Below, piece after piece: positions 101 to 35,346 of a stretch of 35,346 bases of DNA. Numbering within the stretch: the first letter of the stretch is position 1; every line of letters starts with the position of its first letter. Where the stretch lies: IMG/VR virus record IMGVR_UViG_3300043467_001590, positions 1 through 35,346 of that record. One strand, written 5' to 3'. A model generated the notes under the pieces. That model did no database searches. It saw only the letters and a program-made list of their open reading frames with translations, and was not told the origin of the DNA. Position numbers and translations under genes: made by a program. Source of the DNA: a virus.

Positions 101-610
101 ATGTTAGACCTAGATACCGTAAAATATCACATAGGACTCTGGATAGAGACTTTTGTGGAAGTCCCCCATCCTGCCCTAGGCGGTTGGCCCCCTTGTCCGT
201 ATGCTCGCAAGGCCAGGCTAGATCAGGACTTTACAGTTAGGGTAGGAGTTAATCCCTACTTTGACCTTCTTAATGTTGCCAGAGACGGACTAAGTGGCAA
301 AAGTGTGTTAATACTTGCATACAATCCCGACGAATTCTTTTATTCACAATTTACTAGCGACATTAAAGCTGCTAACGAAGAAGCATTGCTACAAAACGAT
401 TTGCTGGCTTTAGAGGATCATCCTGGGGATCAAGAAATTGTTAACGGTGTTAGCATGAATCAAGGCACGTATGCACTGGCACTTGTACAGAGCCTAACGG
501 ACCTAAATGAAAAAGCCCAACTTGTTGCCAAGCAGGGCTTTTATGATACTTGGCCCGAAGATTACTTACAGGCTTTGTTCAAACACCGTAAAGATCCGCG
601 GGCAACTTAA
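101..610 (+). CDS. Hypothetical protein, 169 residues
   Basis: This is a complete gene starting at ATG 101, four bases after the preceding stop; there is no strong Shine-Dalgarno sequence. The N-terminal part has WIETFVEVPHPALGGWPPCP followed by YARKARLD. The shape, a helix and then a CPxA-type turn, faintly recalls the N-terminal motif of DUF1415 proteins (GLNLCPFA), but I cannot confirm that. The rest is a mixed alpha/beta sequence with an acidic centre. Its 3' end overlaps the 3' end of the convergent transferase-like gene by 32 bases. I do not recognise a function. Confidence 0.7.
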   Translation: MLDLDTVKYHIGLWIETFVEVPHPALGGWPPCPYARKARLDQDFTVRVGVNPYFDLLNVARDGLSGKSVLILAYNPDEFFYSQFTSDIKAANEEALLQNDLLALEDHPGDQEIVNGVSMNQGTYALALVQSLTDLNEKAQLVAKQGFYDTWPEDYLQALFKHRKDPRAT

Positions 611-1259
611 TTTTACTATCACGTTTGCACAGCCAAACATATTGATCTACATCTTGGGACCAAACATCACCGTTCCACCACTCAAAGCCCTGTATCTCTG
701 CCTTGTAAATTGAACTTTTTTCGTATCCTGGGCCTAAATAAACATACTCGTACTCTTGTTGTTTAGCCCAAGCAATTTCATGTTCTAGACTACGTGACCC
801 TAGGCGAGAGGCCGGTAAACTATAATCCCATACAAACAAACACGTTTCAATAGCCTGTGGTGAATAATGGCGCAGTTTGGCCCATGCTACAAAAATGTCA
901 TCATGGTAGTAGGCAATAAAACGATCACCGCTTAGACGTTGCCCTACTTCAAAATATTTTTTAAATTTTTTATAATAGCAATAGCTAGTATAGATATGAT
1001 CCATTTCTGTAAACTGACTAGCAGTAGGATTTACTAATTCGCAAGCAGTATCCAATATAGTGTAATTGGTGTTAGCAACTGCTACTCTTGTGCTACGACT
1101 TTGATACCAGCGTATTTGATTATTTCGTATGGTTTGTAAAAAACCCATTTCTAAAGCTGCATTGTGTTCTATCAATTCAACATCAATGAGCTCGCAACGG
1201 AAATGAAAAAACTCGCCTTGCTCTTGTTGGCCAAAATTATGATCAAACTTTATTTTCAT
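579..1259 (-). CDS. Arginyl-tRNA-protein transferase-like protein (C-terminal GNAT-type domain)
   Basis: The 226-residue product resembles the C-terminal half of arginyl/aspartyl-tRNA-protein transferases (ATE/Bpt), which attach an amino acid from aminoacyl-tRNA to a protein N-terminus. Visible matches are SRLGSRSLEHEIAWAK at about residues 151-166, corresponding to the family's SLG...EIxWA segment, and YVYLGPGYEKSSIYKAE at about 172-188, corresponding to YxYLGY....KMxYKA, followed by GFEWW. The N-terminal half differs from ATE_N and has no CxxC-type cysteine cluster, so it may be a standalone acyltransferase of the same fold. The gene is divergent from the DUF6614-like gene with 38 bases between starts, and it converges on the 101-610 gene with a 32-base overlap. 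Biochemical function is inferred only. Confidence 0.65.
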   Translation of the reverse strand: MKIKFDHNFGQQEQGEFFHFRCELIDVELIEHNAALEMGFLQTIRNNQIRWYQSRSTRVAVANTNYTILDTACELVNPTASQFTEMDHIYTSYCYYKKFKKYFEVGQRLSGDRFIAYYHDDIFVAWAKLRHYSPQAIETCLFVWDYSLPASRLGSRSLEHEIAWAKQQEYEYVYLGPGYEKSSIYKAEIQGFEWWNGDVWSQDVDQYVWLCKRDSKIKLPADLYGV

Positions 1260-1297: not shown

Positions 1298-1630
1298 ATG
1301 GATCTCTACACTATATGGGCAAACAAAGAAGGCGACATTTCGGACTTAGATTGGGTCAACGGCATGAAAAGTTTCTTTGAACAGTTAATTAGTGAGGGCA
1401 AAATGGAAACCTACAGAATTACTCGTTGTAAGATGGGCTTCCGTAGTATCGCCGACATGCCCGAATGGATGATTCTAATGGAATTTAAAGACATGGCGCA
1501 GATGGACAGTGCCTTTAAGAGGGTTGCTCCGTTAGAAGGAGAACTAGAAGTCAAACACAAAAGTTTCAATCAGTTTGTTAGTGGAGATATACAACATGCC
1601 TTGTTTAGAGATTGGCCCGATACGTTCTAG
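1298..1630 (+). CDS. DUF6614-like small protein
   Basis: The 110-residue product begins MDLYTIWANKEG, contains KMGFRSIADMPEWMILMEF and KDMAQMDSAF, and ends near HALFRDWPD. From memory of the family, this matches the layout of DUF6614 proteins: an N-terminal MxxYxIW strand, a GFR/GFG loop, a DLAQLDxAF helix and a terminal ALxRDFPD. These are small bacterial alpha/beta proteins, probably of ferredoxin-like dimeric barrel type, with no assigned function. ATG 1298 is preceded by AAGGA at good spacing. The gene stands alone on the plus strand and is followed by a 502-base region between convergent genes. It may be host-derived. Confidence 0.65.
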   Translation: MDLYTIWANKEGDISDLDWVNGMKSFFEQLISEGKMETYRITRCKMGFRSIADMPEWMILMEFKDMAQMDSAFKRVAPLEGELEVKHKSFNQFVSGDIQHALFRDWPDTF

Positions 1631-9025: not shown

Positions 9026-9811
9026 TTATAAATTACAATCAGACTGGCAATTTCTATCTAGGTGATGTAGAATCTCATCGGCCCAAAGTAGATTACACTG
9101 CTCTCCAAAATGTCTGTTATCATCTGACAAATCCAATTCAGCTTGGCCAAAATAAAATGCTCCAAATTTTAAACAATTATTAAAATCAAGTTGGTTATAT
9201 AGACCAAGAAGAATGTTTAGTTTCTGTAATATGTACGAATCATCCCGATTATCAAAATCAAGTATTTTCCTTAAATTTTCGCAAAGATTAATATTTTCTA
9301 ATGAAGTAATAGTTTGATTACGATAAACATTCAATTTGTCGACTAAATTATTAGACCCATTTACAAATACATAGTTAATATTTTTTAATTTGCATACTGC
9401 TTGTAGAGAAATCATATATTCAAACCAAAATTTTAGTGCCATGTAATCATTGCAATAATAAGCAGAATGGGTCTTATACAACGGCCATGCTAAATCTGGA
9501 TTGAGTCCACTTGGGTGAGGTAATACTTGGGTAAAGTTGTCAACATTATTATCTTGTTGATACACCCATATTCTATGTAAACAACTCCACTGCACTAATA
9601 AAACATCATGTTCATTAATGTCACTTATTGTAATGTACTCCACCGCCCTTAAAAAAATTTCATGGTTGCTCATACCACCGATTGACAAATTAATAACGTC
9701 GCATCCAGTCTGTTTTTTTAAAAGATTAGGATAATGTTTATGACTGTTTTGTTCAGTAAATCCAGAATTAGCACTATGTGAACACCCCACAAGAATAATT
9801 CGATTAATCAT
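9026..9811 (-). CDS. SGNH/GDSL-hydrolase-like protein (copy 2)
   Basis: The 261-residue product has the same plan as the 2133-2960 protein: block I ILVGCSHSANSGF with Ser11, a glycine loop SIGGMSNHEI, a VQWSCLHRIWVY segment matching QWTGMPRYN in the other copy, and a C-terminal DDNRHF giving Asp231/His234. The Q-W-(S/T)...R segment is shared by both, so they are probably paralogues. It lies 5 bases after gp55 and 24 before gp47, splitting two core genes. Substrate unknown. The C-terminus is cysteine-containing (RNCQSDCNL). Whether it is catalytically active cannot be told here. Confidence 0.65.
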   Translation of the reverse strand: MINRIILVGCSHSANSGFTEQNSHKHYPNLLKKQTGCDVINLSIGGMSNHEIFLRAVEYITISDINEHDVLLVQWSCLHRIWVYQQDNNVDNFTQVLPHPSGLNPDLAWPLYKTHSAYYCNDYMALKFWFEYMISLQAVCKLKNINYVFVNGSNNLVDKLNVYRNQTITSLENINLCENLRKILDFDNRDDSYILQKLNILLGLYNQLDFNNCLKFGAFYFGQAELDLSDDNRHFGEQCNLLWADEILHHLDRNCQSDCNL

Positions 9812-22200: not shown

Positions 22201-22705
22201 AACCGGCACGGTACCCGAACCAACTCCGCCTACATTAGATGAACTCACTACCGAATATGCCGGTCTCCAAGATTATAAAATGATCTCTGACAATATGATT
22301 TTAAACACTGTACAATTTAAACCGTTATTTGGAGCCAAGGCAGCAGAAGAATTACGGGCAATTATCAAGGTAATTCCTGCTGCCGGAACCACAACCAGCA
22401 CAAGCGAGATTAAAAATTTAGTAGTGGCCAATATGGATGCTTATTTTAGTTTAGACAAATGGGATTTTGGGGCTACATTTTATTTTAGCGAATTGGCTGC
22501 CTATATCCACAGTCAAATTGGCAGCATTGTAAGTAGTGTGGTGTTGGTGCCTCTTAACCCACAAAAGTCATTTGGCGACTTGTATGAAATACGGTCGGCA
22601 CCGAATCAAATTTTTGTTAACGCGGCCACGGTGAATGATATTCAGGTTATACAGGCCTTGACCAGTACAAATATTCGGACAGCACCTGGTAGCGGAGTAA
22701 TTTAA
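19268..22705 (+). CDS. 6: gp6-like baseplate wedge protein
   Basis: This is the main wedge scaffold protein of the baseplate rim. The N-terminal DWKRIYQTYREADFQSYDF, LRLYYPETFNDYIESSEF and FMGQALAFRTDLNTRENYL segments (about residues 12-90) are the diagnostic T4-type gp6 start, followed by TAERRDSVVKLAQLVSYTPK. Later segments include INLNFGDGVFS-type residues (TLNFGDGVFSTIPVGTFRNY) and ARYYTQDRMVNGEDYNNFPF, which are also conserved. At 1,145 residues it is considerably longer than T4 gp6 (660). The extra length is in the middle and C-terminal half, which is beta-rich. Its TAA shares a base with the next ATG (TAATG). Confidence 0.9.
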   Translation: MATTTRQTAIFGVEDWKRIYQTYREADFQSYDFETLRKSFVDYLRLYYPETFNDYIESSEFIALLDVMAFMGQALAFRTDLNTRENYLDTAERRDSVVKLAQLVSYTPKRNTEASGYLKVFSVKTTENVLDYNGVNLASITVNWADPSNFDWQEQFTAIVNASLLNTQRIGRPANNQIILGVDTSEYAINLVPGYIPVIPYTATVDGVNMPFEAVNASSIGRSYVYEPRPLPNGQFNVLFRNDQLGFASANTGYFFLFKQGVLQNQDFNLPERISNRSVDINIEGVNNEDVWLYQLDNLGNVTREWIKTDNVYGAAVEQLTPGSRTIYSVTSRTNDQITLNFGDGVFSTIPVGTFRNYVRASNGLQYIINPEEMQNIQVPIAYVSRTGQIETITFTCGITQPVSNSQARETIQEIKQRAPARYYTQDRMVNGEDYNNFPFTAYNSILKSKALNRASIGTSRYLDLVDNTGKYSSTNIFASDGALYEANNLPAFQFTWLTNNDIADVIANSIQPVIGEDGARQFYYANYTRPDLTVLNITWNQSTTQLNETTGYFQNSLENPVSIGTYSSNNTKYIEVGSLVKFIAPTGYFFDKDNQLVAGVPIRANEKYAIWASPTAVYVDGTNQGLGNFTNGLGPVVLNNFVPTGAIATQVIPLFTTDFTTTFAQSITEQIRLNRNFGLGYNNLTATWYLINSTNLDVNADFSLANAQSTAGVNSDASWFIQATTDGSTYTVVSRSLDYYFGSVLETRFFFFTNQKIYDSRTGTVISDFVNILKTNSKPDNNTPLEGDTRVRIIGQPVESDGYVDDFQVIVGFEDNDADGVPDNPDFFNDIVAPGVNSNLKLVFLQQTVDFDNLQRYLLVEQGVVNSDYATQAAIELDKAEYSNGQVFYAYNPTSATSNIDYSAGLFYQLTLNNDLTRTVDPVTGWIARVGRQDLYFQYRHNSPLTSRLDPGTTNIIDLYIVTLTYYVAYQNWIKDSTGTVPEPTPPTLDELTTEYAGLQDYKMISDNMILNTVQFKPLFGAKAAEELRAIIKVIPAAGTTTSTSEIKNLVVANMDAYFSLDKWDFGATFYFSELAAYIHSQIGSIVSSVVLVPLNPQKSFGDLYEIRSAPNQIFVNAATVNDIQVIQALTSTNIRTAPGSGVI

Positions 22706-25700
22706 TGGCAAGAGTTCGCACAGTTGACTTTCTGCCAGAAATATTTCAAACACCGGTCAACAGACAATTTCTAGCAGCCACCCTAGACCAACTGGTCCAA
22801 GAACCTGAATTTAAAAAGACACAAGGCTATGTAGGCCGCAAGGTGGGCCCCGGCGTTAATCCAGAAGATCGATATGTAATTGAGCCAACGGCCAGTCGTA
22901 CCAATTATCAACTAGAACCGGGCGTGGTAGAAATCAATCCTGAAAACAGCAAAGAAATTGTTGATGCTATTACCTATCCAGGAATTACTGACGCATTAAA
23001 ATTACAGGGTGCTGATACCAGTAAGGCCGATCGTTTATATACTAGCGAATATTATGCATTTGATCCGTTTGTAGATTTTGACAAGTTTACAAACTTTGCC
23101 CAATACTATTGGTTACCCTCGGGGCCACTAAGTGTTGATGTGTCAGCAACAGCTATTCCATTGACTGACGATTTTACGGTGACTCGGGCCAACGGAGTTT
23201 ATGCATTTAGTGGAGTTACTGGTAACAACCCAATTATAACTCTAGTACGTGGCGGCAATTATAATTTTAATGTTGCACAAAATGCCACAGAAACTGTAAA
23301 CTTCCGAGTGAGCAATAGTGGTAGTTCATCTTACATCATTGACTATCAACCAAACCCAACGTTAATATTGGTTCGCGGCAATACCTATGTATTTAATTTA
23401 AATTTAACTGGTGTTTACCCATTTTATATCAAGACCATTGCCAGTCTAGGAAACATTAATACCTATGATACTGGGGTGCTTCGTAACGGGGCTACCACAG
23501 GAATTATTACATTTACTGTTCCTCAAGACGCGCCCGATACTCTATACTATTCCAGTGCCAATGAATATAATTTGCAGGGACAAATTAATATTGTCAATGC
23601 TACCCCCGGAACAGGCCCTGGGTTTTGGATTCAAACAGATCCTGGAGTTGCCGGACGTTTACCGTATGCACCAAACATCAGCAGTCGTGATGTGTTTGGG
23701 GTTCTCAACAATGGAGAAGATCTTGGCACCGTTACCTTTGATGTGCCCGACAAGGACGCACAAAGTTTTTATTATAGTTTAAACACAATTGGCAATATTT
23801 CAGGCAAGCCGTCAGGCACGGTAGATCTTGTAACTACTCTTGATTTTGATCAAATTAATAATCAATTTGTTACTCCGTTTTTAGATGTCACAGGCGGAAT
23901 CGATGGCATAACATCATTAGATGGCCGCACTGTAGTTTTTTTAAATCAAAATCAAGATCCCGAAGCCGGCGGATGGCAAGTTACCACACAGTTTGACCCG
24001 TTGTTACAAACATCATTTGCAAATATTGGTGGAACAAAGTCCGGAACAGTAGTTAATCAAACTTATAGTTCTATTACTCCAACCACTGTAACCGGTAGTG
24101 GCACTGGGTTGATTGTTAACGTAAAACTTTTGTCTAACAGTGTAGTATATTCAAACTCAACTACATCTATTACTGTAGTTGATTCTGGAACAGGGTATAC
24201 TGTCGGGGATACTATAAAGATTCCTGGGAATTTATTAGGAGGCACAACCCCTGTTAACGATTTAACTTTTAAAGTTGTTGTAGTATCAGAAAATAATACA
24301 CCTGGATCATTTGATTCAATATTGTTTGATCAGACCACCTATCTTCCGCAAGATCAATATTACGATGTCTGGCAAATACAGTATAAAACTGATACTGATG
24401 GTCAGCAATTTATGGTGTTAAACAATGTATTGTCAGTTAGCAATTTAGAAAAATTTAATATTCTATTTGGTACCGAGTATTCCAGCACTAGCTGGTATAA
24501 AAATGCTTCTGGATTCTTTGAAGAAATTCCGTTATTAACAGCTATCAAAGATGTGCTGTATTATCAAGACGGCACCGACCCTGAAATTTTTGGGCAGATT
24601 CGTCTTGTCAATCCTGAAAATAATGCCACAATCAAAATTGACGAAATTATTGGTAAAGCCAACTATACCGCACCAAATGGCGTAGTATTCACTAATGGAT
24701 TAAAAGTTGTATTTCGAGGCAATGTAATTCCTGCCAGTTATGCTGGCAATGAATACTATGTTGAGGGAGTCGGAACAGCAATCACATTATTGCCTGTGAG
24801 TAATTTTATCACACCGGAAACATATACACAAAGTTCTACAGTACCATATGACAGCACTCCTTTTGATGTGGGTAACTTTGATGCAACATTAAATGCGCCA
24901 ATCATTCAAGATTATCTCACAATCAATCGTGCAGGAAAAGATCTCAATCCATGGACCCGTAGTAACCGTTGGTTCCATATTGATGTAATTAATGCGTCGG
25001 CAGCCTACAATGATACTGTAGCCGTAGTTGACAATTTGCAGCGTGGGCGCAGGCCTATTTTAGAATTCCGTGCCGGCACAAAATTATATGATTTTGGTAC
25101 TGACGCCATAGCACCGGTTGATATTATTGATTTTAATGTTAGTGATGCACTTAGTGTCGTAAATGGATCTTTAGGGTATGGAGTAGATGGATATACATTT
25201 ATTGATGGGACCACTGTTATTTTTGCTGCAGATACTGATCCAGACGTTAGAAATCAAGTTTACCAGGTTGAATTCATTACACCCGATACTGTACCTCCGT
25301 TGATGCTAGAGCCGGTGATCAATCTCACACCAGTGTATTCAACTGCAATAAAATTTGATCAAACCGTGGTATGCCTCAGCGGAGATACCTTGCAAGGACT
25401 GAGTTTTTACTTTGATGGAGTTGAGTGGATCAGTGCTCAGCAAAAAACAAAAACAAACCAAGCGCCGTTGTTTAATGTCTATGACAACGATGGTATAAGT
25501 TTTGGCTATAAACCCAAATATCCTAGTTCAACATTTGCGGGCAGCAAGTTATTCAGTTATGCTACCCCCAGCACTGCCGCCGAAACCACAATCACCAGCA
25601 CACTTAACGATCCTGTGCTAGGTTTTCAACTAACCTACCTTAGTTTAACTAATGTAGGAGATATTGTATTTGACAATAATCTTTACAAAGATACATTTGT

Positions 25701-28700
25701 GTATGCACCAGAGTCGGTTGGCACTACTGTAGCGATCAGCACAGGATTTGTACGAGAATACAGCGATCGTGTTACCTATTCTCGAGAAATTGGTTGGCAA
25801 ACTGCGGCGACCAAGAGTCGTGCCAGACAACAGTTTCAATTTACCTATGACGGTAAACCTTTGCTGTTAGACGTTAAAGTTATAGACAATAATGTAGTTC
25901 CTGCTGTTCAATTATATGTAAATGAAAGCTTTCAAGAAAGTTACAATTACACAGTAGCAACCACAGATACAACTACAACAATTACACTTAACACAGTATA
26001 TACACCAGGTGATATTATTGAAGTAGCGGTACTAAGCGATCAGGCCAGTGCTGTTGGTTTTTATCAAGTTCCTATCAATTTAGAAAATAATCCATTAAAC
26101 GCCAATAGTGAATCATTTACGTTGGGCACCTTGCGTAATCATTACGATACCATTTGTCAAAATTTAATTAACATAAATGGCCCAATTAACGGCGCCAACA
26201 ATAGTCGTGACTTAGGCAACATTATCCCTTACGGTCAACAAATTTTACAGCAATCGTCGCCACTAACTTTGTCTGGGTATTTCATGCGCAGTCAAGAATA
26301 TGATATTTTTGCGGCGTTGGACTATAACAGTAGAGAATACATTAAATTTAAATCAAAGTTATTAGAAACAGTGATTGCCAATGATTACGGAACTATGACT
26401 GTACCTGAAATACTAGATGCTGCTATCGCCGATATTACCCTGGGGCGCACCGACCTCAACCCATTTTATTGGTCTGACATGTTACCCACCGGGTCAGTTT
26501 ATACTGAAACTAACACCACAGTTACCGCCATAACCGTTGCAACATTTAACACAGTACAAACTTATAATTTCACCAGTGCTAACTATCTGGGTCTTTTAGT
26601 GTATCTAACTAGAATTATTGATAATCAAATCGTTACCACTTTGTTAGAACGAGATTTTGAATATGTTGTAAGTCCTACTGGTCCACGATTGACCATTAGT
26701 ATTTCTTTGGCCGTAGGAGATGTAATAAGCATTCGCGAATATTCAGATACCGCAGGTAGCTTCTGCCCAAACACTCCAACTAAGTTAGGATTGTATCCAA
26801 AATTCCGCCCTGAAATTTTTTATGATACAAATTATGTAAATCCTTCACTAGTAATTCGCGGCCATGATGGTAGCATTACCGTGGCCTTTGACGACTATAG
26901 AAATGATATATTGTTAGAGTTTGAAAAACGCATCTATGACAATATCAAAACAGATGAGAACCCTATTCCATTAACAGTTGATGAGGTTATACCCGGCTTC
27001 TTCCGCACAACAGATTATACACAAGCAGAGATTACTGCAATTCTTGGTAATAGTTTCTTGTCCTGGGTTGGCTGGAACAAGTTAGACTATAAGACTCAAG
27101 ACTATGTAGCTAGTAATCCGTTTACCTACAACTATAGTAGTGCCGGTAATAAAATCAATGAAGAACCATTGCTGGGCGCCTGGCGAGGCATCTATCGTTA
27201 CTTCTACGATACAGAAAGTCCAAACTATACCCCATGGGAAATGCTGGGCTTCAGTGAACAGCCCGAGTGGTGGATTGATCGCTATGGTCCTGCACCATAC
27301 ACCCGTGACAACTTGGTGTTATGGGACGACCTGGAAGCCGGAGTAGTAGCGGACCCAGTGGCGTTTTATATTCGGCCCAATTATCGTCGGCCAGGACTGA
27401 CCTCGGTTATTCCGGTTGGCAGTGAAGGTGAATTATTAAGTCCGTTTGAAAGTGTTATGGGTGCCTACGATCCTACTGCATTCCGCAAGAGCTGGCAAGT
27501 TGGTGACGGTGGCCCAGTTGAAGCTGCATGGTATACAAGTAGTAGCTACCCGTTTGCTGTTATGCGTTTGCTGGCATTAACACGCCCTGCAGAATTTTTT
27601 GCCTTGTTTGCCGACCGAGATCTTTATCGTTTCAACTCTGAGTTAGACCAATATTTGTATAACGGTCGTTATAGATTAGACGCCAATGGTATTCAAATAT
27701 ACGGCAATGGTGTAAGCAAGGCCAGTTACATCAACTGGATTGTTGACTACAATCAACAACTAGGGATTAACAGTACTGATAGTTTAACTACTGCACTGGC
27801 CAATTTAGATGTGCGCTTGTGCTATCGTATGGCATCGTTTACTGACAAGCAATATCTACAAGTATACACAGAAAGATCAAGTCCCAATAGTTTAAACAGC
27901 AGTTTGTTGTTGCCAGACGAAAGCTATAATCTTTTATTGTACAAAAATCAACCGTTTGCCGACATTACCTACAGTGCATTAATTGTTGAACGAGTAGTTG
28001 ATGGTTATGCAATTTACGGTTATAGCACAATTGCTCCTTATTTTCAGATTTTAGTTAGTTCAAGCAATGGCATATTACAAACAGTCAGTGCTGGCGGTGC
28101 CGCAGTGCGTGTGCCTGCTCAATATACTCAAAATATTGCACAGATTCCATATGGATATACCTTTACTAATACCACTATGGTGGTTGATTTTATTTTAAGT
28201 TATGGAGAATATTTAAAAACTCAAGGATTAATATTTGACGATCAAGAAAATGGATATACGTTAAACTGGAGTCAAATGGCTGCAGAGTTTTTATATTTTA
28301 GTCAACAAGGTTGGGCAGAAGGGACCATGATCAACTTAAATCCTGTGGCCACAACACTTCGAGCCTACAGAGCCGGCGCTATAGTTGACACTATTATAAG
28401 TCGCACCCCAGAAAATATGTTGCTAGATCAAAACCGCGGCACATTAGAAACAAGAGACTTGGTTGTGCAAAGATACGGTAATGAGTTTTTAGTCACCTCC
28501 ACGACCAATCAAACTATCAGTTTCCTACAATTACGTTTTACCAATTATGAAAACATGGTAGTGTTGGACAATGTTAGTATCTTTAACGATTTAATATATA
28601 ATCCAACCACAGCAGCTCGACAGAATCGTATCAAAATAGCAGCATCAACTACAACTAACTGGATTGGCGAAGTAGATACTCCAGGATTTGTACTGAATCA

Positions 28701-31700
28701 AGACAATATTGAACAATGGGCTCCATACAAAAAATACACCAAAGGTGAAATTGTTTTGTTCAAGAATAATTATTGGTCGGCCATGGCAATTGTGCAACCT
28801 AAAGATAGATTTGATTATCAAGACTGGGTTAAGAGCGATTACAGTTTAATACAAAAAGGTCTGCTGCCAAATATTGCCAACAAAGCCAATCAGTTGGCCA
28901 ACAGTTATAATATTAATAGTGCAAATCTTGAACGAGACAATGACCTACTCAGCTATGGCTTGATTGGATTCAGACCGCGTCAATACATGGCTGCATTAAA
29001 TCTTGACGATGTTACACAGGTTAATTTATATCAACAGTTTCTAGGAACCAAAGGAACTGTGCGAGCCGCAGAATTGTTTACTCGTGCTGATTTAGGCAAA
29101 GAATCTGGCGAATACAACATTTACGAAAACTGGGGAGTATTGGCTTCCACGTATGGCGCCAACGCTAATAAGAGTTTTTATGAGCTACAATTAAATGAAG
29201 CCAATCTACAAGCAGATCCGGCTACTATACAGGTTATCCTGCCGCAGGAAACCAGTGAAGCAGATCAAACTGTGTTTTTAAATAATGTCTGGCGCACCAG
29301 TTATAAGCTAACTTCTACCGATATTTTACCGACAACCTACAGCCCCTCTTCAGAAACTGCATTGCCTTCTGCAGGATATGTCAACATTGACGATGTAGAT
29401 ATCACCGTGTATAGTTTAGACGATCCAGCTAACATTGCGGCCTCTATTGATACGGTTGGTATAGGTACAACCATTTGGGTAGCCAAGGTCAACAGCTATA
29501 ACTGGGAGATTTATCGTTGCAGCGAAAATCCTGGCACGGTAACACAAATACAAGACAATCTTAATGGCACGGCTATTGCATATTTTACAAATCCTCATAA
29601 TCTTGTCGTAGGTGATTTAATTATTTTGAGATATTTTGGCAATGAGGATGGAGTATATCGAGTGTTAGGTGTACCAAGTATTACATCTATTACTATTGCA
29701 ATTAGTTTTTACAACACCAACCAAACCAGTATTATTGGCACGGGCTTGGCGTTTTATTTGGAAAGTCAACGTGTTAGTCAACCTAGTGATATTCTTAATT
29801 TGTCTTATGCACAAGATCTAAAACCCGGAGCCAGAGTTTGGGTTGACAACGACAGCACTGGACATTGGGAAGTTTTAGAAAAGCAGGAGCCGTTTACTGC
29901 TTTCCAATTTTTAATACCTACCCCACCAGTGGTCAACAGTCGCTATGGATCGAGTGTTACACAAAATCTTGATCATTTTGCTGCATTAGTAGGACAACCA
30001 GGTACTGGCTCTGACACCGGGCTTGTGCATACCTATCAGCGAGGTACTGATACCAATTATTTTGAAAATATTATTTTAGAATTAAATGCACCCAATGTAG
30101 TAGGGTATGGATCCAGCCTTGACTTTGGTGGCAACAATTGGGCTGTAATTGGCGCCCCTGGCAGCAACAGTAATTCTGGGTATATAAACACAGTATACCT
30201 AATCCCTGGTTCAAACGACTATACACAAACACAATTATTGATGGCCCCAGATCAAAATTTTGGCCCAACTACTTTTGGCTATGCCGTAGCAATTAGTGTA
30301 GATGAACTTTGGATGTATGTTGGGGCACCGGTAGCCAATCGAGTGTATGCGTATGCCAGAGTTGATGTAGAATCACAACAGGTGTCTTATGTATCGGATA
30401 GTGTCACTACCTATTACAATTATGCTAACACTATTGAAATTGATTCTAATTATCCAGAACAATTAACTGTAACAGTAGATACTATAACATTGATTTATCA
30501 AACAGATTATGTGCTTGCTGGAAGTAATATAGTGCTTACTGCAGCGCCGGCACTGGGTCAAGTTATACGAATATCTCGTCGCACCGGAGTTCAAATTGAT
30601 CAACAGATATATTATAATATTCAACCAAATTCCAGCACTGGCTCGGGATCGGGCGTGGTGTTCACTGTGGCCAACACACGTGGAACTTATTATCCTACAT
30701 TGACCAATGCTGGAGTCAACTATAACATTGGTGACGTACTGACCATTAGTTATCTGCAGGTGTCTCCGGCGGGCAGTGCGGCTAACAATTTAACCATCAC
30801 AGTTAATAGTGTCTACTCTGGAGGTGCGATCAACACGTTTACTCCAACCGGTGCAGGCATTGATAACACCGCAACATTCCAGTTAAATCCCTATTTGTAC
30901 ACGGCCAATAACATATATGCATTTACTGTCTTGGTTGATGGAGTTGTACAACGCCCACACATTGATTACGAATTTAATAATGATAGTACCGACTCTACAT
31001 ATGACATTACCTTTGCAGCTAGTTCGTTACCGGCACCGGGCGCTGTAATCACTGTGGTAGCCAACACCTACTGGCAATATGTTGATACTATATCAGTAGC
31101 TGGACTGGCCGCTGGTGCTAGGTTTGGCGCCAGCATTTCCACGGCCACAGACGGCACCCAGGTAGTAATTGGTGCGCCCGGAGCCACAGTAAATTCTATA
31201 GCCGGCAGTGGTACAGTATATGTGTTTGACCGTAGCGTGGTTGCTTATCAAGTTACCGACACAACTCAAACAACCTACGCAATTTCTGGCAACTTTACCG
31301 AGCCAGTTATGGTATCACTCAATGGCAGTTTCTTAACCAATGATGATCAATTCCTAAATGGACAATTTTCTGTTGTGGGTACAGATGTAGTATTGTCAAC
31401 TTCGGTTGATTTAACAATTGGCGACACAATAAAAATTGCAACTAATCAATTCCAGTTACTGGAACAATTTCAAGATTTAGCAGCAGTTAGTCCGGCAGCA
31501 ATTGGATATAGTGTAAAACTATGTCATTACAACTGCAGCATTTATATTGGCGCTCCATTAGAAAGTATACAATTACCTCAAGATGGTGCGGTGTATAGGC
31601 AAGTAAATCAATCCAGAGTCTATGGGGTTACAACCAGTACTGTGGCCAATCCAAGTCTAGACAATGGTGATACTATTCGTATCAATGATTACGAGGTAGC

Positions 31701-34700
31701 AGTACCTACGGCACCCAATCAAAACATTGCAGGTCTTGTGGCTGCAATTAACGCGGCCAACATTCCAAATGCTATAGCTACATTAACTTCTGATTTGGAA
31801 TTTATTGGTGATGGAATTACTAAAGTGTTTGCTGTTGGATCAATATATTCTGTGGCCAGTTCTTACACCACAGTGGTATACATTGATGATGTATTGCAAA
31901 CTAGCGGAGTAAATTACACTTACAATGCCACCACAGAACAAATAAATTTTGTTACAGCGCCAACACTTGGTGCAGCAATTGTGGTAATATCCGGGCGTAT
32001 GACTGTGAGTGTCAAAAATATCATAGCAGGCACTCCGGCTAATTTACTCACAGTACTGCCAGGCGTTGTTGGTACTGCATTTGCTGATCTTGGATTTGAT
32101 ACTTATCCGTTTGTACAATTAATAACCAGTCCATTGCCCCAAGATTATGCACAGTTTGGCACCGCTGTTGATATTGATACCAATAGTCAAAATTTAATTG
32201 TTGGGGCGCCATACGGTACAGTAATTGAACCAGAAATTTTTGATGGTGGCGAAACTATATTTGACGATCGTAGCACTACATTCTTCTCACCAATCATAAA
32301 CAGCGGAGTTGCATACACCTATAATTTATTAGATAGTACCAATGGATCAATAAACAATCCTGGCATGTTTGTATTTGGCCAACAAATTTATAATGATACT
32401 TTACGAACTGGAGATTTATTTGGCTCCGCAGTAAACTACACTCACAATCGGTTACTAGTCGGCTCACCGGGACAAGATCTTGGAGATAGCAGTGTAAACT
32501 ATGGTCAAGTAAGTGTGTTTGATAATCCAACCAATGCTCTGTCATGGGCAGTAATTCGAGCACAAGAACCTGCAGTCGATACCAATTTAATCAATGGGGT
32601 ATTTGCCTATGATAGGTTGACATCAAAAACTACAACTTACTTTGATTATATCAACCCATTGCAAGGTAAAATACTCGGGGCTGCCCGCAGAAACATTGAT
32701 TACATTGGTGCTGTAGATCCTGCCCAGTACAACGAAGGCGCAGTTCACAATAATGGAAATAGTTGGGCCAGCGAGTACCTAGGAAAAATTTGGTGGGACA
32801 CTGACACAGTTAGATTTATAGACCCAGGTCAAGATAGTATTAGCTATGCAAGTCGTCGTTGGGGACAATTATTCCCAGGTAGTAGAGTTGACATTTATCA
32901 ATGGGTTGGTAGCACAACTCCACCGGTGAGCTATACTGGTACTGGAACCCCATTGAGCACCAGCAGCTATACTGTAAACACCGCGCTGAATAAACAAAAT
33001 ATTATTGAGACCACATATTATTTCTGGGTGCGTGGTATCGCTACAATTGAAACTGGAGCAGGAAAAACACTCAGCACCACTGGTATTGCTAGTTACATTG
33101 AAAGTCCACGTACCAGTGGAATACCGTATTTGGCCGCTATAAACTCCAGCACTGTGGCAATCTATAATGCACTAGATTTAATTTCTGCCCAAGATACAAT
33201 TCTACACATTGGATATGATCGACAAGCACTTGGTGGCGATAACAATGTTCACCAAGAATATCAATTTGTTGCCGACGGTCGTCCTGACAGTTTCTTGAAT
33301 GCTACATTATATCGTAAATTACAAGACAGTTTCTGTGGAGTTGACGAAGCAGGGGCTGCAGTTCCAGACCCTACACTTGGCCCCGCAGAACGATATGGCG
33401 TACAATTCCGCCCACGTCAGAGCATGTTTGCTGATCGATTTGCTGCACTAAAAAATTATTTAACTCGTGTAAATTCAATATTAGCTTTGTATCCTATTAT
33501 TGAAAGTCGTAATTTTAGTTTATTAAACAGTCGTGAGCCCGAACCTAGCACAAATTCTGGCGCATGGAACAAACGTGTGGCCAATCTTGAAGAGCTAGGC
33601 TATCAACAGCTCAATGCTGTAGCTATTGGTTATCGTTACCTTGTGGTCAGCGATAGTGGCCAACAAGGACGGTGGACTATATATGAAGTTGCGCTAGGAA
33701 CACTGCCGGGCGAAAAAATTCTAAATTTAGTTCGTATTCAAAATTACGATACTCGATTATATTGGAATCACATTAACTGGTATCTGCCTGGATACAACAA
33801 CACTATCCAACCTATAGCCCAAGTACCAAATCGCAGCAGCCTAGATACCTTGACTTTAACAACTGCACCCATTGGTAGCAGTGTCAAAGTTACAGCCAAT
33901 AGCCAGGGTAAATTTGAAATTTATTTAAGAGATATCACTGGATGGACCAGAGTGGGGCTTGAAGACGGCACAATAGAATTCAAAGAAGAACTTTGGAATT
34001 ATTCCGTTGGATATTTTGGATTTGATGTTGAAGTGTTTGATGCACAGTATTTTGATCAGGAGCCAGTGATTGAAACTCGTAAGATTATTCAAGCCATCAA
34101 TGACGAATTATTAATTGGTGATTTGTTGATTGAACGTAATCAAGCCTTAATATTAATGTTTAATTTTGTATACAGTGAATTTACTGCACCAGAGTGGTTG
34201 ATGAAAACTAGTTTAATTGATGTAGATCACAAAATTCGGGCCTTATTACCGTTCCAGACCTACATGCAGGACAATCAAACATTTGTGTTGGATTACATTC
34301 AAGAAGTCAAACCTTACCACGTGCAGATTCGAGAATTTAATTTGTCTTACTATGGTCAAGACACTTATCCGGGCAGTTTAACTGACTTTGATGTGCCGGC
34401 CTATTGGAATTCTACCTTAGATATTCCGCAATATATTAGTCCTATATTGTTGCCTTACGATCATGCTACAACTACAGTGCAAAATGATGTTAGTGATGCA
34501 GCATCTAACACCGAAGTATGGACTGTAGATCCTTGGAAGCAATGGTACAATAACTATCTATTAGGCATACAAAGTGTTACTATTGTCGATGGGGGTAGTG
34601 GATACTTTAGCGCACCAGAAGTAGTAGTTACTGGAGACTGCGTTACACCAGCGGTGATGACTGCAATAATCAACAGTGCTGGGCAGGTGGTTGCTGTTGA

Positions 34701-35346
34701 TATTGTTAGCCCTGGCGCTGGATATAGTACTACTGCTATTCTAACTTTTGTAGGCGAATCTATTACAACCGCGGTGGCCGTAGCATTAATGGGCAACGAT
34801 CTAGTCCGTTCAATTAAAACAGTAATCAAGTATGACCGTTGTGAATATACTACAACCCTGGTAGACTGGCAACCAAACACCACTTACGACAATGGCACAT
34901 TGGTTCGTTATGATGACCGAGTATGGGAAGCTAATAACACCGATAGTACAGCAATCAACACTACAATCTTTATACTTTCAGACTGGACCTTGGTTGATGC
35001 CGATACATTAAGTGGCACTGATCGTACCATGGGCTACTACTTGCCAACAGCAAATGAACCAGGATTAGAATTACCATTATTAATTGATGGAATCAGCTAT
35101 CCTGGTGTGCAGGTAACTGGACCATTGTACAGTCAAAATACTGGGTTTGATGTAGGTAACTTTGACATCAATCCGTTCGATAATATCAGCTACGGTCCAG
35201 AAGGATTGCCCACATACGATCCTGCTATCTTAGATGCCATATACACCAGCCAGTATCTGGACCCGTATCTGGGAACCAGACCTACCGACATCAATGTTGA
35301 TGGTGGTGCCTATGTAGACACTTTCAGTAGTCATGCTCCACAAGAG
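22705..35346 (+). CDS. Giant modular baseplate or tail protein in the gp7 position (3' truncated by window)
   Basis: ATG 22705 shares one base with the gp6 stop, with CGGAG just upstream. I read the frame through to the last base without a stop: 4,214 codons and still open. The N-terminus (VRTVDFLPEIFQTPVNRQFL; TSEYYAFDPFVDFDKFTNFA) and segments such as GKDLNPWTRSNRWFHIDVIN, QKTKTNQAPLFNVYDNDGIS, LDYIQEVKPYHVQIREFNLS and INVDGGAYVDTFSSHAP occur in large structural proteins of T4-like aquatic phages. Modules in order are a cupredoxin-like unit (218-300), a GYTVGD unit (about 453-520), beta modules, a CBM-like motif (2005), seven FG-GAP motifs (2413-3274), and a second CBM-like motif (4055). 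It occupies the gp7 place after gp6, but resemblance to T4 gp7 is not visible. Likely role: baseplate rim or host contact. Confidence 0.9.
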   Translation, partial: MARVRTVDFLPEIFQTPVNRQFLAATLDQLVQEPEFKKTQGYVGRKVGPGVNPEDRYVIEPTASRTNYQLEPGVVEINPENSKEIVDAITYPGITDALKLQGADTSKADRLYTSEYYAFDPFVDFDKFTNFAQYYWLPSGPLSVDVSATAIPLTDDFTVTRANGVYAFSGVTGNNPIITLVRGGNYNFNVAQNATETVNFRVSNSGSSSYIIDYQPNPTLILVRGNTYVFNLNLTGVYPFYIKTIASLGNINTYDTGVLRNGATTGIITFTVPQDAPDTLYYSSANEYNLQGQINIVNATPGTGPGFWIQTDPGVAGRLPYAPNISSRDVFGVLNNGEDLGTVTFDVPDKDAQSFYYSLNTIGNISGKPSGTVDLVTTLDFDQINNQFVTPFLDVTGGIDGITSLDGRTVVFLNQNQDPEAGGWQVTTQFDPLLQTSFANIGGTKSGTVVNQTYSSITPTTVTGSGTGLIVNVKLLSNSVVYSNSTTSITVVDSGTGYTVGDTIKIPGNLLGGTTPVNDLTFKVVVVSENNTPGSFDSILFDQTTYLPQDQYYDVWQIQYKTDTDGQQFMVLNNVLSVSNLEKFNILFGTEYSSTSWYKNASGFFEEIPLLTAIKDVLYYQDGTDPEIFGQIRLVNPENNATIKIDEIIGKANYTAPNGVVFTNGLKVVFRGNVIPASYAGNEYYVEGVGTAITLLPVSNFITPETYTQSSTVPYDSTPFDVGNFDATLNAPIIQDYLTINRAGKDLNPWTRSNRWFHIDVINASAAYNDTVAVVDNLQRGRRPILEFRAGTKLYDFGTDAIAPVDIIDFNVSDALSVVNGSLGYGVDGYTFIDGTTVIFAADTDPDVRNQVYQVEFITPDTVPPLMLEPVINLTPVYSTAIKFDQTVVCLSGDTLQGLSFYFDGVEWISAQQKTKTNQAPLFNVYDNDGISFGYKPKYPSSTFAGSKLFSYATPSTAAETTITSTLNDPVLGFQLTYLSLTNVGDIVFDNNLYKDTFVYAPESVGTTVAISTGFVREYSDRVTYSREIGWQTAATKSRARQQFQFTYDGKPLLLDVKVIDNNVVPAVQLYVNESFQESYNYTVATTDTTTTITLNTVYTPGDIIEVAVLSDQASAVGFYQVPINLENNPLNANSESFTLGTLRNHYDTICQNLININGPINGANNSRDLGNIIPYGQQILQQSSPLTLSGYFMRSQEYDIFAALDYNSREYIKFKSKLLETVIANDYGTMTVPEILDAAIADITLGRTDLNPFYWSDMLPTGSVYTETNTTVTAITVATFNTVQTYNFTSANYLGLLVYLTRIIDNQIVTTLLERDFEYVVSPTGPRLTISISLAVGDVISIREYSDTAGSFCPNTPTKLGLYPKFRPEIFYDTNYVNPSLVIRGHDGSITVAFDDYRNDILLEFEKRIYDNIKTDENPIPLTVDEVIPGFFRTTDYTQAEITAILGNSFLSWVGWNKLDYKTQDYVASNPFTYNYSSAGNKINEEPLLGAWRGIYRYFYDTESPNYTPWEMLGFSEQPEWWIDRYGPAPYTRDNLVLWDDLEAGVVADPVAFYIRPNYRRPGLTSVIPVGSEGELLSPFESVMGAYDPTAFRKSWQVGDGGPVEAAWYTSSSYPFAVMRLLALTRPAEFFALFADRDLYRFNSELDQYLYNGRYRLDANGIQIYGNGVSKASYINWIVDYNQQLGINSTDSLTTALANLDVRLCYRMASFTDKQYLQVYTERSSPNSLNSSLLLPDESYNLLLYKNQPFADITYSALIVERVVDGYAIYGYSTIAPYFQILVSSSNGILQTVSAGGAAVRVPAQYTQNIAQIPYGYTFTNTTMVVDFILSYGEYLKTQGLIFDDQENGYTLNWSQMAAEFLYFSQQGWAEGTMINLNPVATTLRAYRAGAIVDTIISRTPENMLLDQNRGTLETRDLVVQRYGNEFLVTSTTNQTISFLQLRFTNYENMVVLDNVSIFNDLIYNPTTAARQNRIKIAASTTTNWIGEVDTPGFVLNQDNIEQWAPYKKYTKGEIVLFKNNYWSAMAIVQPKDRFDYQDWVKSDYSLIQKGLLPNIANKANQLANSYNINSANLERDNDLLSYGLIGFRPRQYMAALNLDDVTQVNLYQQFLGTKGTVRAAELFTRADLGKESGEYNIYENWGVLASTYGANANKSFYELQLNEANLQADPATIQVILPQETSEADQTVFLNNVWRTSYKLTSTDILPTTYSPSSETALPSAGYVNIDDVDITVYSLDDPANIAASIDTVGIGTTIWVAKVNSYNWEIYRCSENPGTVTQIQDNLNGTAIAYFTNPHNLVVGDLIILRYFGNEDGVYRVLGVPSITSITIAISFYNTNQTSIIGTGLAFYLESQRVSQPSDILNLSYAQDLKPGARVWVDNDSTGHWEVLEKQEPFTAFQFLIPTPPVVNSRYGSSVTQNLDHFAALVGQPGTGSDTGLVHTYQRGTDTNYFENIILELNAPNVVGYGSSLDFGGNNWAVIGAPGSNSNSGYINTVYLIPGSNDYTQTQLLMAPDQNFGPTTFGYAVAISVDELWMYVGAPVANRVYAYARVDVESQQVSYVSDSVTTYYNYANTIEIDSNYPEQLTVTVDTITLIYQTDYVLAGSNIVLTAAPALGQVIRISRRTGVQIDQQIYYNIQPNSSTGSGSGVVFTVANTRGTYYPTLTNAGVNYNIGDVLTISYLQVSPAGSAANNLTITVNSVYSGGAINTFTPTGAGIDNTATFQLNPYLYTANNIYAFTVLVDGVVQRPHIDYEFNNDSTDSTYDITFAASSLPAPGAVITVVANTYWQYVDTISVAGLAAGARFGASISTATDGTQVVIGAPGATVNSIAGSGTVYVFDRSVVAYQVTDTTQTTYAISGNFTEPVMVSLNGSFLTNDDQFLNGQFSVVGTDVVLSTSVDLTIGDTIKIATNQFQLLEQFQDLAAVSPAAIGYSVKLCHYNCSIYIGAPLESIQLPQDGAVYRQVNQSRVYGVTTSTVANPSLDNGDTIRINDYEVAVPTAPNQNIAGLVAAINAANIPNAIATLTSDLEFIGDGITKVFAVGSIYSVASSYTTVVYIDDVLQTSGVNYTYNATTEQINFVTAPTLGAAIVVISGRMTVSVKNIIAGTPANLLTVLPGVVGTAFADLGFDTYPFVQLITSPLPQDYAQFGTAVDIDTNSQNLIVGAPYGTVIEPEIFDGGETIFDDRSTTFFSPIINSGVAYTYNLLDSTNGSINNPGMFVFGQQIYNDTLRTGDLFGSAVNYTHNRLLVGSPGQDLGDSSVNYGQVSVFDNPTNALSWAVIRAQEPAVDTNLINGVFAYDRLTSKTTTYFDYINPLQGKILGAARRNIDYIGAVDPAQYNEGAVHNNGNSWASEYLGKIWWDTDTVRFIDPGQDSISYASRRWGQLFPGSRVDIYQWVGSTTPPVSYTGTGTPLSTSSYTVNTALNKQNIIETTYYFWVRGIATIETGAGKTLSTTGIASYIESPRTSGIPYLAAINSSTVAIYNALDLISAQDTILHIGYDRQALGGDNNVHQEYQFVADGRPDSFLNATLYRKLQDSFCGVDEAGAAVPDPTLGPAERYGVQFRPRQSMFADRFAALKNYLTRVNSILALYPIIESRNFSLLNSREPEPSTNSGAWNKRVANLEELGYQQLNAVAIGYRYLVVSDSGQQGRWTIYEVALGTLPGEKILNLVRIQNYDTRLYWNHINWYLPGYNNTIQPIAQVPNRSSLDTLTLTTAPIGSSVKVTANSQGKFEIYLRDITGWTRVGLEDGTIEFKEELWNYSVGYFGFDVEVFDAQYFDQEPVIETRKIIQAINDELLIGDLLIERNQALILMFNFVYSEFTAPEWLMKTSLIDVDHKIRALLPFQTYMQDNQTFVLDYIQEVKPYHVQIREFNLSYYGQDTYPGSLTDFDVPAYWNSTLDIPQYISPILLPYDHATTTVQNDVSDAASNTEVWTVDPWKQWYNNYLLGIQSVTIVDGGSGYFSAPEVVVTGDCVTPAVMTAIINSAGQVVAVDIVSPGAGYSTTAILTFVGESITTAVAVALMGNDLVRSIKTVIKYDRCEYTTTLVDWQPNTTYDNGTLVRYDDRVWEANNTDSTAINTTIFILSDWTLVDADTLSGTDRTMGYYLPTANEPGLELPLLIDGISYPGVQVTGPLYSQNTGFDVGNFDINPFDNISYGPEGLPTYDPAILDAIYTSQYLDPYLGTRPTDINVDGGAYVDTFSSHAPQE
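23356..23604 (+). other. Cupredoxin-like module in the giant protein, metal ligands not evident
   Basis: NPTLILVRGNTYVFNLNLTG, YPFYIKTIASLG, GATTGIITFTVPQDAPDTLYY and a closing INIVNA are the successive strands of a cupredoxin-type module common in aquatic phage proteins. In those I recall, the strand before the end carries a Cys-x-x-His...Met set. Here it reads SSANEYNLQG, so copper binding is unlikely. Partial copies of the same strands lie before it (TLVRGGNYNFNV) and after it (GEDLGTVTFDVPDKDAQSFY). Confidence 0.55.
24061..24285 (+). other. GxGYxxGD-type module, copy 1
   Basis: GSGTGLIVNVKLL, TVVDSGTGYTVGDTIKIPG and GGTTPVNDLTFKVVV form one beta unit. The same order of features occurs again at about 30640-30800 (GSGSGVVFTVAN, NAGVNYNIGDVLTIS, AANNLTITVN), so the module is duplicated within the giant protein. 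A looser version is at 34573-34755 (VDGGSGYFSAPEVVVTG and VSPGAGYSTTAILTF). Confidence 0.55.
28717..28833 (+). other. CBM5/12-like carbohydrate-binding motif, copy 1
   Basis: Residues 2005-2041 of the giant protein read WAPYKKYTKGEIVLFKNNYW and later DYQDW. Spaced Trp/Tyr residues with a KGEIV strand match the small chitin/cellulose-binding fold CBM5/12 (WxxxxxYxxGDxVxYxGxxW). These aromatic side chains bind sugars in known members. A second copy lies at 34867-34986. Confidence 0.5.
29941..32525 (+). other. Seven FG-GAP motifs forming a predicted beta-propeller with inserted domains
   Basis: Seven motifs of the FG-GAP type (FGxSV......VGAP....Gxvyxy) occur in order: RYGSSV..ALVGQP (29941), GYGSSL..AVIGAPG (30106), TFGYAV..MYVGAP (30274), RFGASI..VVIGAPG (31114), IGYSVK..IYIGAP (31501), QFGTAV..LIVGAP (32149), LFGSAV..LLVGSPG (32416). 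Integrin-type propellers have seven blades of this type. Long inserts lie between blades 3-4, 4-5 and 5-6, and a shorter one within blade 6. Calcium-binding DxDxDG loops are not obvious. The structure is inferred from the motifs. Confidence 0.65.
34867..34986 (+). other. CBM5/12-like carbohydrate-binding motif, copy 2
   Basis: Residues 4055-4094 read WQPNTTYDNGTLVRYDDRVW and, later, SDW. The aromatic spacing and the NGTLVRY strand match copy 1 and the CBM5/12 pattern. It is followed by conserved C-terminal segments of the giant protein. Confidence 0.55.

Follow-up and report, generated by a model that had tools for sequence, protein, structure and literature searches.

A phage-borne branch of the arginyltransferase (ATE) superfamily without the ATE metal site

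Enzymes of the ATE family have so far been known from eukaryotes and bacteria. An open reading frame in the genome of an uncultured virus raises the question of whether phages too carry a member of this family and, if so, what such a protein might do. The window, by which we mean the whole analysed stretch of 35,346 bases from one IMG/VR record, encodes on its minus strand (1259 to 579) a 226-residue protein in which an earlier note on the bare sequence had noticed ATE-type motifs; these are indeed present, as RLGSRSLEHEIAWA (residues 152–165) and YVYLGPGYEKSSIYKA (residues 172–187). The phage origin assumed in that note is likewise borne out, as the window carries tail and baseplate genes of myovirus type, with domains like baseplate V and gp6, and encodes a structural protein akin to counterparts in large T4-like phages. 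The phage is probably aquatic, judging by the kind of contigs involved and the marine relatives of the partner genes. At the other end of the window, downstream of a baseplate gene, a single tail ORF (22705–35346) extends over 4,214 codons or more and is still open where the record ends. The features that concern us here are the following:

101–610, plus strand: g1, a DUF6875/DUF1415-like gene with CP[YF]A and DHP motifs, which adjoins the ATE-like gene in 77 of 80 loci
579–1259, minus strand: ATE-like protein, long form, 226 aa (open reading frame; ATE_C match above cut-off; family alignments A1, A4 and A5; structural model)
684–1091, minus strand: GNAT core, residues 57–192, the part retained in a short form of the protein (short-form profile matches)
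702–740, minus strand: the YLGPGYEKSSIYK signature, residues 174–186 (invariant residues across 33 diverse members)
777–806, minus strand: RLGSRSLEHE loop and helix start, residues 152–161, equivalent of SLGTF in ATE (profile alignment)
1092–1259, minus strand: N-terminal part, residues 1–56, the ATE_N counterpart without the cysteine cluster (structure match from residue 1; hhalign match from residue 26)
1298–1630, plus strand: DUF6614 gene, third member of the cassette, divergent from the ATE-like gene (PF20319, E=2.2e-21)

Kinship with the arginyltransferases

The ATE-like gene is conserved across hundreds of uncultured phage contigs: successive scans returned 36 and then 48 loci, followed by 368 candidate stretches, 80 of which were kept, on contigs of up to 338 kb. 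Single-sequence tblastn with three long forms and one short form gave no match in a set of 50,697 records from cultured or deposited phages. The phage-type gene was likewise not found on plasmids, nor in bacterial genomes by a close-pattern scan, whose reach is that of close relatives. Among the cultured phages the only ATE-like hits are contigs labelled "Acinetobacter phage MD-2021a"; they carry a bacterial-type ATE, which is probably host sequence, and were set aside.

The kinship of these proteins with ATE is solid. Residues 98–176 of the window protein match ATE_C (PF04377) with E=6.2e-6 and 27.3 bits (cut-off 25), and the same model recovers all 24 of the nearest relatives and, at E-values up to 0.1, 32 of 33 members of a diverse set reaching down to 32% identity. 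Up to 31 of these 33 also hit NCBIfam models of arginyltransferases, with scores so far under the model cut-offs that we regard the phage proteins as relatives rather than orthologues of ATE. For a more sensitive comparison, a profile of the wide 33-member phage set (A5) was aligned with hhalign to a profile (A3) built from 21 bacterial ATEs of plasmid and genome origin, which had been collected with a consensus bait, only real database sequences being used in the later steps. The two profiles align over residues 26–200 (E=5.2e-7) with a score of 51.6, while 40 column-shuffled control profiles reached a mean of 13.6 and a maximum of 19.1 against the same bacterial ATEs, and the likeness is thus beyond chance. 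With the profile of close relatives (A1) the match was confined to residues 111–201, and it is the wider A5 that stretched it to 26–200. Searched against solved structures in the PDB, A5 retrieved the yeast ATE1 (KlATE1) first (6.6e-5). Profile comparison of ATE_C with the GNAT families, a check that the earlier note had called for, favours ATE_C over the Acetyltransf families in long and short forms alike, and no FemAB Pfam match was seen among the 24 close and 33 diverse members.

Structure prediction, the second check envisaged, leads to the same family. An AlphaFold2 model built with A5 (pLDDT 89, pTM 0.86) has a GNAT fold, with many GNAT matches at Z 11–13, and Foldseek ranks ATE1 first (7.2e-7). 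In VIA-align the model superposes on human ATE1 through residues 1–217, with Z 13.7 over 202 residues at 4.2 Å, making ATE1 its best full-length structural match; the GNAT acetyltransferases, MprF and FemX reach Z 11–13.6 while covering only 108–170 residues. Among these, FemX (Z about 11–12 over about 141 aa) resembles the phage protein in fold only. In the viral structure library the top match is A0A6J7WRI5, an uncharacterised 143-aa UniProt protein from an uncultured phage, which is 35% identical to the ATE-like protein and whose length fits the short form.

A lineage without the metal site, and its trimmed form

The phage proteins share with the ATE family (ATE1 and the bacterial Bpt-type enzymes) the ATE_C domain, the fold over residues 1–217, the LG loop, the YLG and YK motifs and a conserved C-terminal W, and differ from it in having no Cys/zinc (or Fe–S) site, no ATE_N match, a YLGP motif and a short, acidic segment. 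In the bacterial set A3, C7, C51, C54 and C57 are invariant and correspond to the cysteines of the zinc site of yeast ATE1 (scATE1), C20, C23, C94 and C95 (PMC10115844). By our reading of the alignment, the loop bearing three of them is deleted in the phage profile (YRPxCxxCxACxSVRI in ATE versus WYQSRSTRV), and the first is absent too, the phage proteins being without an invariant Cys at that point. The window protein does not match ATE_N (PF04376) at E-values up to 10, and a search of five related phage records with this model found nothing either, whereas a control genome did match. The earlier note had reported the ATE_N cysteine region to be missing: this stands for the cysteines themselves, whereas the N-terminal half is kept, since the structural match to ATE1 begins with the first residue of the model, which suggests a Cys-less counterpart of that half rather than an absent domain.

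The phage proteins differ from ATE in further respects. In scATE1 the basic helix alpha-f binds the tRNA acceptor stem (PMC10115844); between the point of the Cys loop and the next helix, ATEs carry a basic QRRVxRRN segment, which by its position may be equated with this helix. The equivalent segment is 26 aa long in the phage proteins versus 33 in ATE, with a mean charge of −1.7 versus +3.3, and the whole proteins are acidic, with a mean pI of 5.5 against 8.0; tRNA may, however, be bound by a different surface. The YLGY...MxYK of ATE has become YxGPGYExSSxYK, with YLGP in place of YLGY, the M missing and a YLG-to-YK spacing of 8 instead of 10, and SAMYTF has become ETxLFxW. LG, YxG and YK are invariant in the phage set, and across all 33 diverse long forms so are Y174, G176, G178, Y179, Y185 and K186, as well as the GFEWWxGxxW that comes after YxGPGYExSSxYK. 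More than 20 invariant residues in all are clustered in these two motifs (YxGxGYxxxxxYK and GFEWWxGxxW), which, as far as conservation goes, suggests an active site under constraint. The acetyl-CoA pyrophosphate-loop motif [QR]xxGx[GA] was found in none of the 33 long forms and none of the 20 short ones. Taken with the altered metal site and motifs, its absence means that these proteins are neither bona fide ATEs nor recognisable CoA-dependent GNATs.

Among other GNAT-fold enzymes, FemX, DhpH-C, PacB, VlmA and Orf11/Sba18 combine the GNAT aminoacyltransferase fold with roles in small-molecule and cell-wall pathways (PMC12945691); these are double-GNAT proteins of the FemABX type, whereas the sequence likeness of the phage protein is to ATE. 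The aminoacyl-phosphatidylglycerol synthases (MprF, L-PGS and A-PGS) match the model in fold (Z about 11–13), yet the phage protein shows no sequence match to them and has no membrane domain. With RimI and VipF it has the GNAT core in common, without their acetyl-CoA motif. An isolated, cysteine-poor protein related to ATE from a plasmid of the Bacteroidota genus Bernardetia (L060:235-945) also lacks the cysteine cluster, so that this loss is not exclusive to phages.

Alongside the long form there is a short form of about 144 aa, which matches only residues about 57–192 of the long one (E 1.7e-31 to 6.2e-17) and so has no counterpart of the sheet with which ATE binds its substrate. ATE_C is again the closest family (18 of 20 match, the best at 2e-9), and the short and long profiles align with an hhalign E-value of 3.3e-34. 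A maximum-likelihood tree of the core unites the short forms in one clade (100/100) nested within the long forms and sets the bacterial ATEs apart in another (100/100), whose branch, at 3.75 changes, is very long; if the tree is rooted on ATE, the ATE-like architecture of the long form comes out as ancestral, and the short form has lost both ends, a polarity that depends on a root made uncertain by the length of the ATE branch. The two forms also exchange places. In L290, which has a g1 82% identical to the window's own, a short form (L290:4504-4935) lies on the plus strand between g1 and DUF6614, in the slot that a long form on the minus strand holds in L289, a relative of the window. When the short form was sought in 13 long-form contigs, it turned up as a second copy only in G006 and G008, and the long form was absent from all 12 short-form contigs searched. 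We read this exchange within one slot as replacement by a functional equivalent.

Thus, the protein represents a branch of the ATE superfamily, apparently specific to phages, that has the GNAT fold and has lost the ATE metal site. Neither a phage branch of ATE nor a phage arginyltransferase is reported in the open literature that we searched.

The gene cassette and its partners

In the loci nearest to the window the order is fixed: a SegE-type GIY-YIG gene, DUF6614 on the opposite strand, the ATE-like gene, and g1 on the opposite strand, the last two overlapping at their 3′ ends, in the window itself by 32 bp. Across diverse loci g1 adjoins the ATE-like gene in 36 of 41, and does so in three relative orientations, namely convergent and overlapping, on the same strand (L231, L234-L236) and divergent (L247); hence, their association is not easily explained as a passenger effect of one overlapping pair. 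Loci anchored on g1 contain DUF6614 in 74 of 80, besides the ATE-like gene in the 77 listed above. A fourth partner, an amidinotransferase-like gene, is frequent elsewhere: around it, g1 is found in 53, the ATE-like gene in 50 and DUF6614 in 35 of 80 loci. All these fractions are descriptive only, since each anchored set consists of the 80 best-scoring loci and may include near-duplicates of one phage. The commonest arrangement places the four genes on one strand, as g1 > ATE-like > amidinotransferase > DUF6614; the median gaps between neighbours are −7, 14 and 4 nt, and the set of such same-strand operons comprises 110 short and 17 long forms. In the window's own lineage no amidinotransferase gene stands beside the ATE-like gene. 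Of 16 phage contigs examined, 8 have no tRNA genes, and we therefore see no link to phage-encoded tRNAs.

The amidinotransferase-like protein matches HsvA, L-arginine:glycine amidinotransferase (AGAT) and StrB, with H213, D215, H344 and C345 invariant. Its family is large, with at least 546 relatives in IMG/VR (sampled at L225, L237-L240, L247 and L364-L443), and several copies may lie side by side (L376, L380, L428). For g1, an alignment of 16 proteins shows CPxA and DHP as invariant; L241 and L242 are without DHP. Its likeness to DUF6875 and DUF1415 is limited to the first ~45 residues, and one member, L230, passes the DUF6875 cut-off, across 42 residues only. DUF6875 proteins have been reported to be enzymes that bind heme and oxidise tryptophan (PMC13307353).

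Some of these partners also occur in marine phages. The amidinotransferase-like gene is present in the marine single-cell virus AG-345-D19 and in the cyanophage S-SCSM2R, the latter having a g1-like gene as well, and neither has an ATE-like gene in the stretches examined. In S-SCSM2R and the roseophage CRP-810, where the ATE-like gene was not found as far as we searched, the g1-like gene adjoins an annotated 2OG-Fe(II) oxygenase gene (L248:4180-5450, L250:4414-5522).

Two further elements lie close by. Between DUF6614 and the next gene, on the minus strand (1860–2125), is a conserved stretch of ~270 nt without an open frame, of which 60 distinct homologues, 73–97% identical, occur in the fetched loci, including those of short-form phages. 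Its consensus fold has 54 pairs, 19 of them changed on both sides, with 15 of 3,240 cells broken, and no Rfam family matches it; it is a candidate for an undescribed structured RNA. The ORFs at 2133–2960, near the cassette, and 9026–9811 are paralogous, the second being weakly like DUF6071, and they begin with a GCSFTxG-type motif that we take to be of the kind seen in SGNH hydrolases.

What the phage protein may do

The cassette, which formed no part of the earlier note, resembles a small biosynthetic pathway more than a protein-degradation tag, and this context favours aminoacyl or acyl transfer in an amino-acid-derived biosynthesis over N-degron tagging. Hence, we tentatively propose, with a probability of about 0.4, that the protein is an aminoacyltransferase that acts in the cassette's biosynthesis, passing an aminoacyl group, probably tRNA-borne, to the amine of a small molecule or short peptide. 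Computation shows the kinship with ATE, the fold, the lost cysteine loop, the membership of the cassette and the exchange of long and trimmed forms in one slot; the aminoacyl donor, the tRNA dependence, the acceptor, the product and what each partner does are what we infer. The GNAT cleft would hold the donor aminoacyl group, probably delivered by a charged tRNA, and the acceptor amine would attack it, as one step in a phage cassette comprising the DUF6875/DUF1415-like, possibly heme-binding protein, DUF6614 and often the amidinotransferase-like enzyme. K186, the invariant lysine of YK, is a candidate active-site residue that may lie near the reacting centre, likened from motif position rather than residue-level superposition to Lys305 of FemX and Lys329 of DhpH-C, for which such a place has been proposed (PMC12945691). 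GNAT-fold enzymes using aminoacyl-tRNA do occur in natural-product pathways (PMC12945691). The proposal draws on ATE being the top relative in every sequence search, on the closeness in fold of the aminoacyl-phosphatidylglycerol synthases and FemX, on the absent acetyl-CoA motif, and on the cassette, its partners and the exchange of forms in one slot; against it count the acidic, shortened helix segment, the low pI, a window lineage without an adjoining amidinotransferase, the partial nature of the likeness between g1 and DUF6875, the missing link to phage tRNAs and the possible near-duplicates among the loci. A bolder version, which we consider unlikely as it stands, would have the four genes, as DUF6875-like heme oxygenase, ATE-derived transferase, arginine amidinotransferase and DUF6614, build an amino-acid-derived, guanidino-bearing small molecule or peptide while the host is infected, in hundreds of uncultured aquatic phages, diverting host aminoacyl-tRNA and arginine.

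The alternative that survives best, doubtful as it is, supposes that an ATE-derived GNAT core has taken up CoA or another ordinary, non-tRNA acyl donor and N-acylates a product of the cassette. The good matches of the model to RimI, VipF and aminoglycoside acetyltransferases, the acidic surface with its lost basic helix segment, and a short form that is the GNAT core alone would all fit such an enzyme, whereas the CoA loop motif is missing from all 53 members and sequence searches prefer ATE_C to the Acetyltransf families. 

The earlier note had suggested that the enzyme could tag host or phage proteins for degradation or else use another aminoacyl-tRNA or acyl donor, and of these two the latter is the better guess. 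Tagging would amount to a phage N-degron enzyme that adds an N-terminal amino acid in the manner of Bpt or ATE1, marking host or phage proteins for removal by ClpS/ClpAP. ATE homology over nearly the full length, N-terminal sheet included, is what one would expect of it; nevertheless, with the metal site and the basic helix segment lost, YLGY changed to YLGP and SAMYTF to ETxLFxW, a slot also filled by a trimmed form without the substrate-binding part, and cassette partners that resemble metabolic enzymes, the amidinotransferase-like one among them, we hold it to be improbable. Least probable of all is a ligand-binding or structural protein on the ATE/GNAT fold with no transferase activity, which would agree with the alteration of both ATE and GNAT acetyltransferase donor-binding features and with the lack of any known activity, yet sits poorly with more than 20 invariant motif residues across 33 diverse members, suggestive of a conserved active site, and with an operon shared with enzymes.

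Whichever donor the protein may use, what emerges is a whole clade of the ATE superfamily that is borne by phages and has shed the very metal site that defines the family. Full ATE, the Cys-less long form and the short form reduced to the GNAT core make up a natural series, along which what the metal site does can be tested apart from what the substrate-binding sheet does. The cassette, in turn, points to a biosynthesis in phages that has gone unrecognised and may draw on aminoacyl-tRNA and arginine.
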